Below are positions 9,315 to 54,532 of a stretch of DNA of 54,532 nucleotides, one piece after another; positions within the stretch are counted from its first letter, which is position 1; each line of letters starts with the position of its first letter. Location of the stretch: positions 1-54,532 of the forward strand of contig JAGGAD010000022.1 in assembly GCA_017889625.1 (NCBI GenBank), given 5' to 3'. The notes below the pieces were generated by a model, which was not told the origin of the DNA, did no database searches, and saw only the letters and a list, made by a program, of their open reading frames with translations. The position numbers and the translations under genes are program-made. This DNA is from Bacillota bacterium. Lineage in GTDB: Bacteria; Bacillota; Negativicutes; Sporomusales; CTSoil-080.

Positions 9315-10496
9315 ATGTTATTTTATTTTCAACCTGATTTGTTATCTGCAGGATTAGGCTTATCCGGTAGTTTTTTACTAATGGCAGATGTAATAACCTT
9401 AACTAAAGATAAGATAATTAAAACAGCAGGAACTAATAAGCTTATGTTATCCAATTATGAGAATGAAACAAAACCACTATTAAAGCGAAGAATTGATACG
9501 ATTTTTGGAGGTTTTTTTATTACTGCATCTTACCTTATACAAATGTTAAACACCATTAAAGGTATCCTTTTGTTTGAAACACCATATGACTGGTTCGGAA
9601 CATGGATTACTTTAATAACTATATTTAGTGTTACATATTTTATAAAACATAATTTAACCGAATTTTACATAGGGGCTGAAAATCAAGTATTTTTTAAAAA
9701 CATAAAAAAGCATAAAATAAACGCTTTGTATTTTAGTTGCCTAGCTATATTTATAATTTCTATTGGCCTAATATATTATTCAAGTCTCATAAAAGATTGG
9801 GAACAAAGTTTATATCTGAATATAGGGACAAGTCTCTTATGCTCTTTACTATTTCTGTGTTCTGTTGATTTCATATTAAAGAGAAATGCTAAAAATGATC
9901 AAAAACAGCGGGCAGCATTAGCTTTTAAACGATTAAAGTGGCCATTAATAAGGCATTTAGAAATGTTTCGTGATATGTATAAAGCAAGCTCTAAAGATGA
10001 TGAGTTTATCCAATACGACACATTTGAGGAAATGTTTTGCGAAAAATACTTTAATACAATCGTACACCTAAATATTGGAAGTAAAGCACCAGTATTTCCA
10101 TATATCTCGTGGGAGAATTTTTTTTATAGCAGTGTTTCAACTTTTTCTTCTGAGTTGAATAGTATTATTGATAAATTTGGAATGGTACTAACAAAAGATG
10201 AACTTACCCTATTAGAAGATATAATAAATTCACCGCTTTCTATTTTTACTAAACAATTGCCAATAGCTTCTTTCGGTAACAAATTTCCGTTTTATCCGAT
10301 TTATAAGATGGGAGTAAAAAACTATATAATTTTATTAATTAAACTTCTAAATATTATTAATCAATATTTAGATAAAGCAGAAACGATATATAAAGTAACA
10401 TTTGAAGCCAATACTGCTCCTACTATTGGGGAAAGTAGAATAGATTTCGAGATAAAACTAGATCCATCGGGAGCAGAACAAATAATCTCGAAATAA
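9315..10496 (+). CDS. Multi-pass membrane protein of unknown function (island cargo)
   Basis: 393 residues. Hydrophobic segments lie at about 8-25, 64-85, 92-112, 137-158 and 168-188. A hydrophilic C-terminal domain of about 200 residues follows, with no motif I recognise. The coding sequence is clearly AT-richer than the flanking chromosome. No strong ribosome site is present (AGAGAG about ten bases upstream). It stands alone on the plus strand after xre and is not part of the replication operon. In islands of this kind such a position often holds accessory or defence genes, but that is only positional inference. Confidence 0.65.
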   Translation: MLFYFQPDLLSAGLGLSGSFLLMADVITLTKDKIIKTAGTNKLMLSNYENETKPLLKRRIDTIFGGFFITASYLIQMLNTIKGILLFETPYDWFGTWITLITIFSVTYFIKHNLTEFYIGAENQVFFKNIKKHKINALYFSCLAIFIISIGLIYYSSLIKDWEQSLYLNIGTSLLCSLLFLCSVDFILKRNAKNDQKQRAALAFKRLKWPLIRHLEMFRDMYKASSKDDEFIQYDTFEEMFCEKYFNTIVHLNIGSKAPVFPYISWENFFYSSVSTFSSELNSIIDKFGMVLTKDELTLLEDIINSPLSIFTKQLPIASFGNKFPFYPIYKMGVKNYIILLIKLLNIINQYLDKAETIYKVTFEANTAPTIGESRIDFEIKLDPSGAEQIISK

Positions 10497-15038: not shown

Positions 15039-15800
15039 CTACTCCGGCTTTATATTATGCTTTGCAATTATACCCTCTAGCTCTTTCACCTCATTCTTTA
15101 ACTTTATATTTTCTGCGGTTAAGTACTCAGTTATTTTCCTCTCAGCTTCCAATTCATGCAATAATTCACTAGCATGAGAACCCGCTAATCTATAATAACT
15201 TTCCCATTTCGAAAATAGCCTACCGGCTCTTACTTCTCTGTCGTCAAGTTCCTTATTCCCGCTCATTAACAAAACATCAACGGCAGTATAAGTATCAGCA
15301 GTATAAGTATCAGCATTATCAAATGCATCATCCTTATTATCGCTACCTAGATATAATTCAATTTTTTCCTTTGCCCTCATTAAATCATCAGGCTTAAAAT
15401 TACTACCTCTCTCAAGGTATTCCATAAGAGAACAAAATGCCTTAACATCATCCCCAAAAATGGATTGGCAAACTTCTTCAAACTCGTTATCGCTTAAATC
15501 ACCACGCTCTTCGGCATACCTTTTAAACTCTTGTCCTGCTTTGTGCCACAATTGTTTCCCTAAGGGTAATAAATCCGATAATTCATTCAGAGAAATTCCT
15601 TCTGACTTTATTGTCCACCAAGAAGCAAAAAAATGCTTTGGAGTATCCTCTGGGTAGTCTGAAAATCTTCCTGCCCCGCGCCCATTTGCCCCTCTTTTAG
15701 GCTCAGGTATAACTTTTGCCTTTTCAAACCGTAATAACGTACTCCTACTTATATTAATCCCCATATTCTTTATTTGTCGTAAAACTTCATCAGGAGACAT
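15039..15800 (-). CDS. MerR-like regulator with coiled-coil C-terminus
   Basis: 253 residues, ATG behind GGGGAG. The N-terminus resembles the MerR DNA-binding fold: SPDEVLRQIKNMGINISRSTLLRFEKAKVIPEPKRG followed by a wing-like GRGAGRFSDYPE; these are read in short pieces. The middle is acidic and contains a duplicated pentapeptide-like ADTYT caused by a 15-bp tandem repeat (15286-15315). The end is a predicted coiled coil (LLHELEAERKITEYLTAEN, LKNEVKELEGI). It is first in the minus-strand island operon. Two copies of a 27-bp operator, one before this gene and one after it, suggest autoregulation and control of the replication module. Confidence 0.7.
   Translation of the reverse strand: MSPDEVLRQIKNMGINISRSTLLRFEKAKVIPEPKRGANGRGAGRFSDYPEDTPKHFFASWWTIKSEGISLNELSDLLPLGKQLWHKAGQEFKRYAEERGDLSDNEFEEVCQSIFGDDVKAFCSLMEYLERGSNFKPDDLMRAKEKIELYLGSDNKDDAFDNADTYTADTYTAVDVLLMSGNKELDDREVRAGRLFSKWESYYRLAGSHASELLHELEAERKITEYLTAENIKLKNEVKELEGIIAKHNIKPE
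15286..15315. repeat. 15-bp tandem duplication inside the MerR-like gene
   Basis: gtataagtatcagca occurs twice back to back. It is in frame and adds five residues, so it does not break the gene. Confidence 0.8.
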
Positions 15801-49917: not shown

Positions 49918-50898
49918 TCAGCGTCCAGCTAACCTATACGCATTTCCCAGCAAATTTCTGGCACCCTGTTCTGTAATAATCTCGCTTTGCTGCTCAACAA
50001 TTGGCTGAACTTCTTCAATCGTCACCTCATATTCATTATTTAAAAACGCCTGCATTCCCTTGAGTAAATGCAAATCACTATTATCTGGCAACATGATTAA
50101 TCCTTTTTCGAGCACATCAGTAAGCTTAGCTTGTTCATTCAATCTTAAAAGCCCGACACCCAACCGGACTACAACACTAGAGAAATAGCCTTCGCCGCCA
50201 GTAAGAAACCTCAGAGCAGTTTCAAATTGCTGAACACTTTCAGCGAGCCTTTCACTCTGCATGTATTCAATCCCCAAACTATATAAAAGATATGGGTCAT
50301 GCGGATTATCCGCCAAAGCTTTTTTTATCACTTCAACATTTCGCTTTTGCTTATTCTTAGCCGTTACCTTCGTACTTAAATACCCATAATGCTCAACTGT
50401 TATATTAGCAAAACCTACTCCATTTTCCACATTACTTTTTATACTGCCAATAACCTGTTCATGGATTGCACCGGAAAACCGATACTCCGGCTTATTCCTA
50501 AATAACCTTACAACATAGTCTTCGCTTACTTTCTCATTGCTATCAACATAACTGCGAATAGTAAAATAATAACCTTCCATATCACCAGCTTCTAACAAGC
50601 TTTGAAAATAAACCCCATCAATATCATCCAACCGTTCATCCGCATCTAATACTAAAATCCAATTGCCATTGGCCTGCTCCAAGCCAAAATTCCTTGCGTC
50701 GGCAAAATTACTATTCCAAAAATAATCATGCACCATAGCCCCTTCGCCAATTGCCGCTTCCCTGGTTTTATCCTCAGAACCAGTATCAACAATCACAATC
50801 TCATCAACCAGATTTTTTACGCTTTGAATACATGCTTTTATGTCCGTTTCTTCATTCTTGACAATCATACATAAACTTACCTTTACCCCGCTGCTCAT
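49918..50898 (-). CDS. GT2 glycosyltransferase with TPR tail
   Basis: 326 residues. GT-A domain, residues 5-200: VSLCMIVKNEETDIKACIQS, VDEIVIVDTGSEDKT, the DXD-like LDADERLDD and a family-typical RLFRNKPEYRFSGAIHEQV. The C-terminal 120 residues are TPR-like repeats (DPYLLYSLGIEYMQSERLAE). Such fusions are common near surface or spore glycoprotein genes. The next gene upstream is a longer homologue, 26 bp away. Confidence 0.88.
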   Translation of the reverse strand: MSSGVKVSLCMIVKNEETDIKACIQSVKNLVDEIVIVDTGSEDKTREAAIGEGAMVHDYFWNSNFADARNFGLEQANGNWILVLDADERLDDIDGVYFQSLLEAGDMEGYYFTIRSYVDSNEKVSEDYVVRLFRNKPEYRFSGAIHEQVIGSIKSNVENGVGFANITVEHYGYLSTKVTAKNKQKRNVEVIKKALADNPHDPYLLYSLGIEYMQSERLAESVQQFETALRFLTGGEGYFSSVVVRLGVGLLRLNEQAKLTDVLEKGLIMLPDNSDLHLLKGMQAFLNNEYEVTIEEVQPIVEQQSEIITEQGARNLLGNAYRLAGR

Positions 50899-50923: not shown

Positions 50924-52921
50924 TTAATTACCTAACCCTGATGCCAGCTTTAATCCGCCGTGCACCACAGGTACATCTTGATATTTTTCTACTGTTTGCT
51001 TTACTATATCTTGATGCATTTTATCGTATAATCGCGCTAAATGAATATAATTTTTCGGATTTTTCGGTTCTAAGCTCATTGCCTGCCGATAGTAATAATG
51101 AGCATCTAAGAGCTCTCCCTGTTTCTCTTTAACCTGTGCCAAAATAAAATATGCCAACCAGCATTGGTTATTTTCAGTAATACAAGCATCCAAAAACCGT
51201 TCGGCTAATTCTAGCTTACCGTATTTAAAGCAACACTCACCCACAACCGAATTTAATTCCTTTTTGGTTTCTGGCGTAACTCCCTCAAGAAGGGTTATCG
51301 CTCGTTCCCATTCACCCAAAACAACTGACCTTTTGAAGACATCCAGCAAAATTACTATGCCTTCTTTTCCCAGAGTGACTTTCGGCAAACTGCGCTCGCC
51401 CATATTATCAACTAGAATTTTTACTACATTAGCACTATCTTCTGTCAACTTAAGTGCCGTTATATCTTCCGCTAACTTCCGTAATCCTTGCTGACGCCCC
51501 TGTAACCAAAAAGCGAGCAATCTATTAAACATAGCAGGCAAAAAGAAAGGATCTTCGGCCGTAATACTTTCAAACTTACTCATCGCTTCAGCAAATTCTC
51601 GTTTTTGCATTAAACATATTGCCTTTTTAACTTTTATATCTGATGCTTCCTCAAGCTTCATCCCAGCTTCTTCTTCAGCCGCCTGATGAGCAAGGTCAAA
51701 AAACTCATAAGCCAAATTGTATGCCGACTGATTCATCAAAAATTCAGCAATACATTTATTAGCTCCTACGCCTTTAAACTCACATATTTTCCCCAAAGCT
51801 TGTTTAGCATACGCCTCATCCACACGTGGTTCCAGTATTCGGCAGATACATTCCAACGCTGCAGTGCAGGCCGCATTATCCCTTAGCGACATTACATAAT
51901 TGCGTAAAGCTTCCTCTTCATTACAAAACATTTCCGCAATCTGACCCAAAAAATAATAAGCCCGAAAGCCATTAACTCCGTTAATCGTAGCAAAATGTGA
52001 CGGCTGTTTGGGCACAGCGACAGCCTTGCCAAACGCCATATAGGCCAACCCATACTCCCCTTGTTCATAATAAATCAGGCCCTGAAAGTAGTGCAAATCA
52101 GCATAGGTAGGAAACCAGGCCAAACCTTGCTTAATAATGTTCAGTGCCAATTCATATTTTTTTTGATTATAATAGCACTGCGTAACATAACGCATCAATT
52201 TTGGCAAATAACCAGTATTTACGTCTATTCCCTCAGCCGCTTTAATAAATTCGTTTGCCGCTTGTTCATATCGTTCCACTCGATATAACTCGACCCCATA
52301 ATGAAACCGCAGCATTTTATCGTCGGGAGTTTCTCCAATATGTTCCTCGACCATACGTAAATTCCGGTTTTTCTTATCCTTTTCAATAAGCTGCTGATCA
52401 AGAAATCCATAATGCCGGATAACCAAATCTTCCGCAACCACAAATTGTGTTTCTTTATTATGCTGTAGAATAACATCTGCAATTTGTTCATGAATAGCAC
52501 CGTGGAACCGATGTTCCGGTTTATTTCTAAACAACCGGAATACTATATCCGGCGCCATTTCAGTAACCCCATTACCACCTACATAATTTTCTATTCGCAG
52601 AAAATAACCACTTACGCCTTTTCTTTCAAGCAACGGTGGCAGTAAAACACCACTTTCTGGAGTTAATTCCTCATCAGCATCTAAAAATAAAATCCAATCG
52701 CCCTTTGCCAAATCAATCGAACGATTACGAGCATCACTAAAACTTCCATTCCACGCAAACCTTTCTACTTTTGCCCCAAACTCGTTGGCAATTTCACAGG
52801 TATTATCTGTCGACCCGGTATCAACAACAATCATCTCATCTACTACCCCAATTACACTTTGGAGACACCGCCGCAGATTTTTCCCTTCATTTTTAGCAAT
52901 CATGCACAAACTGACTTTCAT
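50924..52921 (-). CDS. Large GT2 glycosyltransferase with TPR array
   Basis: 665 residues from the ATG at 52921 behind GAGGT; in-frame sequence upstream to 53017 has no family match. GT-A domain at 1-200: MKVSLCMIAKNEGKNLRRCL, VDEMIVVDTGSTDNT, FLDADEELTPE and RLFRNKPEHRFHGAIHEQI. A long TPR region follows (for example MLRFHYGVELYRVERYEQAA, ADLHYFQGLIYYEQGEYGLA, HYYYRQAMSLEPKNPKNYIH). It probably glycosylates proteins; the adjacent Ser/Thr-rich repeat protein is a candidate target. Operon with the shorter homologue. Confidence 0.88.
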   Translation of the reverse strand: MKVSLCMIAKNEGKNLRRCLQSVIGVVDEMIVVDTGSTDNTCEIANEFGAKVERFAWNGSFSDARNRSIDLAKGDWILFLDADEELTPESGVLLPPLLERKGVSGYFLRIENYVGGNGVTEMAPDIVFRLFRNKPEHRFHGAIHEQIADVILQHNKETQFVVAEDLVIRHYGFLDQQLIEKDKKNRNLRMVEEHIGETPDDKMLRFHYGVELYRVERYEQAANEFIKAAEGIDVNTGYLPKLMRYVTQCYYNQKKYELALNIIKQGLAWFPTYADLHYFQGLIYYEQGEYGLAYMAFGKAVAVPKQPSHFATINGVNGFRAYYFLGQIAEMFCNEEEALRNYVMSLRDNAACTAALECICRILEPRVDEAYAKQALGKICEFKGVGANKCIAEFLMNQSAYNLAYEFFDLAHQAAEEEAGMKLEEASDIKVKKAICLMQKREFAEAMSKFESITAEDPFFLPAMFNRLLAFWLQGRQQGLRKLAEDITALKLTEDSANVVKILVDNMGERSLPKVTLGKEGIVILLDVFKRSVVLGEWERAITLLEGVTPETKKELNSVVGECCFKYGKLELAERFLDACITENNQCWLAYFILAQVKEKQGELLDAHYYYRQAMSLEPKNPKNYIHLARLYDKMHQDIVKQTVEKYQDVPVVHGGLKLASGLGN

Positions 52922-53086
52922 ATCTGCATACCTCACTGCAAAAATTATCAAACCTTCTACAATATATGAAAACCAGCTACACAGCGTGCTTGAAAGACAG
53001 CCTTCTCCCAGTGCCACTTACCACTATGAAAACATATTATGTTATATGAGTAATTACACTCAAATAACTAATAGGGAGAACTATGC

Positions 53087-54075
53087 ATGCCTAATTTTAA
53101 GATTTTCCAAGACGATGCCGACCAAGCACGAATTAAAATTTACGGCAGCGATAACCAGCCAATTGCCCAAGATTCTAGCGGCAATATACTGATATCTACC
53201 ACTGGTTCCAGTGCTTTAAGCGTTACCGGCACGCATCACTACCGGCACAGTTAATATTGCTACCTCCGGGGCTTTAAGTGTTACTGGCTCCGTTGATGTT
53301 CTCAATACCGTCAGCATCACTACCGGCACGGTTAATATTGCTACCTCCGGGGCTTTAAGTGTTACCGGCTCCGTTGATGTTCTCCACGGTTAATATTGCT
53401 ACCTCCGGGGCTTTAAGTGTTACCGGCTCGGTTGATGTTCTCAATACTGTCAGCATCACTACCGGCACGGTTAATATTGCTACCTCCGGGGCTTTAAGTG
53501 TTACCGGCTCGGTTGATGTTCTCAATACCGTCAGCATTACTACCGGCACGGTTAATATTGCTACTTCCGGGGCTTTAAGTGTTACCGGCTCGGTTGATGT
53601 TCTCAATACCGTCAGCATTACAACCGGCACGGTTAACATTGCTACCTCCGGGGCTTTAAGTGTTACCGGCTCGGTTGATGTTCTCAATACCGTCAGCATC
53701 ACTACCGGCACTGGTGCTCTTAGTGTTACTGGCTCGATCCAAACATCAAGCGCCACAACCGATGTAGCTACTTCTGTAGCTAGTTACGTTGGTTCAACTC
53801 TCACCCCTTCAACGGTCTGGACGGTCCTGCCGTTTAGCACTTGGACAATTGCTGTCCACAACGCTAGTACCGCCGATACTGCTCAAGCCCGCTTGCAGCT
53901 AAGCCCGGATGCTGTAAACTATATGAATGATAGTAGCGTAGTTACTACCATCGCCCCTGGCGAAGTTGACGCATTTTTCTCCCACGCGCACTTAAAATAC
54001 GCCCGAATTTATTACGCCGCACTTAGTGCATCTAATACCGTAAGCCTAAACTTCTGGTTCCAAGGTGTAAACTAA
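53087..54075 (+). pseudogene. Ser/Thr-rich repeat protein with DUF6385-like end, frameshifted
   Basis: ATG at 53087 behind AGGGAG opens MPNFKIFQDDADQARIKIYG and runs 55 codons to a stop at 53252-53254. The body is an 81-bp tandem repeat coding for 27 residues (ALSVTGSVDVLNTVSITTG, TVNIATSG). Two units are 23 bp short, so the frame shifts twice. The last four units and the C-terminal domain (TVLPFSTWTIAVHNASTADT, YARIYYAALSASNTVSLNFW) are open in another frame, to a stop at 54075. The C-terminus resembles DUF6385 proteins of spore-formers. The gene is either switched off, phase-variable or misassembled. Neighbouring glycosyltransferases point to a surface or spore-coat glycoprotein. Confidence 0.75.
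53213..53778 (+). repeat. 81-bp tandem repeat array
   Basis: Unit starts (GCTTTAAG) fall at 53213, 53271, 53352, 53410, 53491, 53572 and 53653, with a partial unit at 53716. Spacings are 58, 81, 58, 81, 81, 81 and 63 bp. The 58-bp units lack 23 bp at different places; the last loses 18 bp in frame. Confidence 0.9.
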
Positions 54076-54104: not shown

Positions 54105-54146
54105 AAAAAGGGGTAGTGCTGAACTATTGTTCAGCACCCCCTTTTT
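54105..54146 (+). terminator. Terminator after the repeat protein
   Basis: AAAAAGGGG and CCCCTTTTT with an inner TGCTGAA/TTCAGCA stem, ending in a T-run. Confidence 0.9.
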
Positions 54147-54511
54147 ATTGCTGGGAAATACGATTAGACAACTTTTAAATTCCCGCTAGCCTTCCCGATT
54201 AGTCGTACTGTCTGATAAAACTTGCTTGAATGGACAGCTCATATTACTTGCCAGCTTAACCGAGATGAATACTGGGCCTGCCGGTATAATTCTTGCCAAA
54301 ATTTGCCGCTATACCCTTGGCACGGGAGCGTTTGTGTCCCCCGTGGTCATTATTGTCATCAGTAGTTTTTATGTTTGGACAAGGCGGCCAATTGCTTATA
54401 TCGCTTAACAGGTGCTCTTTGGGTGTCTACAGATTGAAGTAAAACATATTATTTTACTTTGTAACGTTAGTATATCCTGCCTGCATATCATATTTTTAGG
54501 GAGGGATTTTC
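54147..54511. other. Intergenic stretch before the next gene
   Basis: 365 bp. It holds an AAGTAAAA/TTTTACTT inverted repeat near 54439-54461 and a 60-codon open frame (54226-54408) without a ribosome site, which I do not accept as a gene. Otherwise nothing recognised. Confidence 0.5.
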
Positions 54512-54532
54512 ATGGGATTTTCAATAATCAAA
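54512..54532 (+). CDS. Start of a further gene (truncated by the window)
   Basis: ATG at 54512 follows GGGAGGG at good spacing and opens MGFSIIK before the window ends. Too short to identify. Confidence 0.4.

Follow-up and report, generated by a model that had tools for sequence, protein, structure and literature searches.

The window analysed here comprises 54,532 nucleotides, contig JAGGAD010000022.1 of the draft assembly GCA_017889625.1 (113 contigs) from a Bacillota bacterium. Towards its right end a gene for a DUF6385 repeat protein follows two GT2-TPR glycosyltransferase genes on the opposite strand, and the contig ends shortly after the start of the next gene (Table 1). The product of the repeat gene is laid out as a conserved head, MPNFKIFQDDADQARIKIYGSDNQPIAQD, then a tandem array and then a C-terminal DUF6385 domain. 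In the deposited sequence the head, the middle segment and the C-terminal domain are read in three different frames.

Table 1. Features at the right end of the window; positions refer to the whole stretch.
Feature	Position	Strand	Remark
Second GT2-TPR glycosyltransferase gene	49918..50898	-	domain search
Divergent GT2-TPR glycosyltransferase gene	50924..53017	-	domain search
Sporulation (sigma-E/K)-like promoter	53016..53040	+	AC, 15 nt, CATATTAT; pattern match
Ribosome-binding site AGGGAGA	53073..53079	+	7 nt before ATG 53087; direct reading
DUF6385 repeat-protein gene	53087..54075	+	three frames in deposited sequence
Head segment, MPNFKIFQD...	53087..53233	+	frame 0
Tandem array	53213..53715	+	unit ALSVTGSVDVLNTVSITTGTVNIATSG, 27 aa = 81 nt
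Junction 1, frame change	53233/53234	+	23 nt short of 81-nt or 5 nt short of 63-nt unit; microhomology at most 1 nt
Middle segment	53234..53384	+	frame +1; 151 nt; open in own frame
Junction 2, frame change	53384/53385	+	23 nt short of 81-nt unit; microhomology 0
Right segment: last units and C-terminal domain to stop	53385..54075	+	frame +2
DUF6385 domain (PF19912)	53830..54066	+	Pfam match; predicted all-beta jelly-roll-like fold
Terminator-like hairpin, 3' of gene	54107..54146	+	
Next gene, first codons (MGFSIIK)	54512..54532	+	cut by contig end, 21 nt in

The repeat array and its frames

Using GCTTTAAG as anchor, the units of the array start at positions 53213, 53271, 53352, 53410, 53491, 53572 and 53653 and have lengths of 58, 81, 58, 81, 81, 81 and 63 nt. 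This measurement confirmed the original prediction that units 1 and 3 are 58 bp long in place of 81. The prediction that start codon and C-terminal domain lie in different frames was also borne out, and the middle segment adds a third frame. The start frame (ATG 53087) runs into a stop at 53254, and the DUF6385 frame reaches its stop at 54075. Inside the head, middle and right segments stop codons are absent, each segment being read in its own frame. The array is far above chance (Tandem Repeats Finder score 612, 96% matches). A minus-strand open reading frame across the array (53355-53756) was rejected as being without support. Two short tandem repeats are located elsewhere in the window, at 10319-10361 and 15283-15319, with periods of 22 and 15. 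A short frame of three codons, ATG CAT GCC TAA (53083-53094), begins at an additional ATG 4 nt 5' of the gene start and overlaps that start.

Both short units had been described as lacking exactly 23 bp, with the argument that a single slippage event would hardly produce equal losses. Unit 3 is indeed 23 nt short of 81, at a different place from unit 1, and the statement holds for both if both units once had 81 bp. Unit 1, on the other hand, shows 3 mismatches to an 81-nt unit minus 23 and 2 mismatches to a 63-nt unit minus 5. A unit of 63 nt is present as the last unit of the array, and the first unit of the closest relative is also short: there the head runs SLSVTGTVSITTTGALSVTG, with Thr after Gly as in unit 1 here. 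In view of the 63-nt fit of unit 1, the two losses may be equal in appearance only; the argument on slippage is fair, but the equality hinges on the assumed unit length. The frame change is identical under either reading of unit 1.

A comparison of the units with their consensus revealed that 11 of the 12 base differences are synonymous in the protein frame, whereas random changes would give 28-35% (p about 7e-6 to 7e-5). The corresponding counts for the two alternative frames were 1/12 and 0/12. The synonymous pattern extends to the middle segment, whose frame in the deposited sequence matches neither that of the gene start nor that of the gene end. On the evidence of these differences, the repeat protein is taken to be constrained still, or to have been so until very recently.

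The sigma-E/K-like promoter suggests expression in the sporulating mother cell. The pattern AC-N15-17-CATANNNT was present upstream of 24 of the 62 starts of the gene and its relatives, compared with 1.8 expected from shuffles and a maximum of 7 in 200; the relatives are not independent samples, and this count is therefore supportive and not a strict test. TATAAT was found upstream of the gene and its relatives less often than expected. A 16-nt promoter sequence containing CATATTAT recurs at 54441-54456, ahead of the next gene (start 54512); this gene may be under the same control as the DUF6385 repeat gene.

Relatives of the gene and their assemblies

Alignment of the conserved head recovered relatives at 60 named loci (L047-L106), after a contig scan with the 238-aa ORF as query had recovered none. 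They include Sporomusa, Anaerospora, Lucifera, Desulfosporosinus, Desulforamulus, Desulfofundulus, Carboxydocella, Syntrophomonas and others. No DUF6385 matches were found in phages or plasmids, and a mobile origin of the gene is without support.

The gene order around the DUF6385 repeat gene is conserved with these relatives. A GT2-like ORF is located in the examined flank of 53 of the 60, and most carry a pair oriented divergently to the repeat gene, as in the window. The locus in the window shares the head MPNFKI.QD..DQARIKIYGS, the repeats, the DUF6385 end and the divergent GT2-TPR genes; it departs from the module in the single open frame, which is missing in the sequence as deposited. 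The two GT2-TPR genes and the DUF6385 repeat gene form a conserved and apparently undescribed module in Sporomusales, Desulfotomaculum relatives and other spore-forming Bacillota, and no mention of DUF6385 was found in the literature searched. The next gene begins like the CBM96-DUF6385 protein (MGFTIIK) that the closest relative encodes at the same place. The remainder of this gene was not found elsewhere in the genome, and the contig-end sequence was not found in any other contig. C71, the best match elsewhere in the genome to the downstream CBM96 gene, has an identity of 22% and is a different gene.

From the head to DUF6385 the frame is open in 48 of the 60 relatives, one of which (L058) has an N run in its array. 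A further 8 are truncated by a contig end in the repeat region of the gene, and 4 were called broken: two with N runs in the array, L097, where the array head occurs a second time in a shifted frame, as in a false join, and L102 with many small indels. A single clean frameshift was present in none of the 60. N runs occur in the arrays of 3 relatives, breaking the frame in 2, and none lies within 900 nt upstream. Contig ends within 500 nt of the start codon were counted 8 times downstream vs once upstream; combined with the N runs, 11 of 12 such events are downstream (one-sided p = 0.003, for draft genomes of varied quality and a 500-nt window selected post hoc).

The closest relative, G002 (MAG CTSoil_080, contig JAGGAC010000021.1), has 89% identity over the first 38 residues of the head and is itself split inside the array: its contigs C101 and C7 both end there, each half being in frame. 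All finished or near-finished assemblies examined were open, namely the complete Carboxydocella chromosome, the PacBio assembly of Acididesulfobacillus, Sporomusa sp. KB1, G015 and G017.

Origin of the two frame breaks

We consider it probable (roughly 0.7) that both frame breaks are assembly errors in the draft genome and that the gene of the cell is open. The near-identical units, the repeated failure of the relatives' assemblies in the array, the open frames of the finished or near-finished assemblies, the coding signature, intact on both sides of each break, and the preserved promoter, ribosome-binding site, terminator and gene order argue for this reading. The cell would carry an open DUF6385 repeat gene, and the joining of short reads or contigs inside the near-identical 81-bp repeats would have produced the two breaks. 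The deposited gene would then consist of pieces (head, 151-nt middle and right part) abutted at two places, and at each abutment bases would have been lost or left unresolved. That the joins are wrong, and that the assembler made them in this way, we infer. With 0-1 nt of microhomology and no whole-unit steps, the losses appear unlike slippage or unequal crossing-over. The length of the middle piece is suggestive, since 151 nt is a common Illumina read length, and may be a coincidence. Against an assembly error stands the longest exact repeat in the deposited array, which is 63 nt, so that an assembler with a k of 77 or more would see no ambiguity unless identical units had already collapsed. 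A literature search on repeat misassembly brought up nothing specific.

The array was furthermore assembled through without Ns, unlike in most of the failed relatives, a point that also speaks for real recent frameshifts, the gene of this strain having lost its function through two small deletions. Translation of such a young pseudogene would end after a head peptide of 55 residues, leaving the rest untranslated; no observation demands an artefact, and a very young pseudogene would likewise keep unit differences that are synonymous only. We regard this as unlikely, since two independent frame-breaking losses would be needed in one short gene that is otherwise undecayed and has no stops in each segment's own frame, and since no relative has a clean frameshift vs at least 11 with an assembly failure at the same place. 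An older, decayed pseudogene is disfavoured by the sequence because of the lack of own-frame stops, the 11 synonymous differences out of 12 and the intact control signals; neither loss of constraint nor loss of these signals was found in the repeat gene. Recombination between the units, which their near-identity makes plausible, could in principle act as an on/off switch: a real 58-bp unit (58 = 1 mod 3) shifts the frame, and its gain or loss would bring the head into the frame of the C-terminal domain or take it out again. The switched product would be a glycosylated spore-surface repeat protein, but we hold this reading to be very improbable. The normal unit has 27 codons, so that whole 81-bp units cannot alter the frame, the frame-breaking units are absent from the cleanly assembled relatives, and the gene is single copy in the genome, with neither a partner locus nor a second copy. 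Phase variation would involve a unit that is not a multiple of 3 together with frame variants, and what was found is a unit of 81 nt and relatives that are open (48/60) or cut, gapped or corrupted (12/60). Programmed translational frameshifting at two sites, joining the three frames, would agree with every segment being open in its own frame. It is the most remote of the readings, as two +1 shifts would be needed at two unrelated sequences, no known slippery signal was recognised at junction 1 or 2, and in the relatives a single frame encodes this protein, with no shift.

The original prediction had listed switching, a pseudogene and collapse of repeats in assembly without choosing among them; of these, assembly error is now favoured, decay is disfavoured and switching is left without positive support. 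Where a draft genome shows a frame break within near-identical coding repeats, the break should not be taken for a switch or a pseudogene. The analysis also brought out that spore-forming anaerobes share a conserved module of DUF6385 and glycosyltransferase genes with sporulation-type promoters.

Likely role and comparison with known systems

The match to PF19912 (63.9 bits vs a curated cut-off of 26.8) covers residues 158-236 of the 238-aa ORF and places the protein in DUF6385. A model of the C-terminal domain is all-beta with a pLDDT of 94; single-sequence prediction for the entire right segment gave a poor model (pLDDT 49.5), which was discarded. The best Foldseek match of the domain model is Ena3A (E 4.6e-5, TM 0.57). 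Ena3A, Ena2A and Ena1 are among the best structural matches of this predicted model, tied with unrelated jelly rolls; the Ena structures reach a VIA Z of 8-10, tied with PirA, YomS and GOLD domains. Our best guess is that the product would be a glycosylated spore-surface protein made late in sporulation.

The ENA subunits Ena1, Ena2 and Ena3 (PDB 7a02, 9i0y, 8pdz) resemble the case described here in belonging to spore-formers and in having a sporulation-type promoter. In contrast, their sequence identity to the DUF6385 domain is 8-20%. A 27-residue repeat array is not known from ENA subunits. BclA-like exosporium proteins share the Ser/Thr-rich repeats beside glycosyltransferase genes and a beta-rich C-terminal domain. 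However, their repeat is collagen-like (GXY), which the repeat here is not, and their C-terminal domain is Pfam BclA-C instead of DUF6385. A glycosyltransferase gene is located near F-BclA, too (PMC11952670). The DUF6385 (PF19912) proteins of spore-forming Bacillota have the same C-terminal domain, head, intervening repeats and divergent GT2-TPR neighbours; their genes are open, or else show cuts, gaps or corruption in the assembly, whereas the gene in the window combines a gap-free array with three frames.
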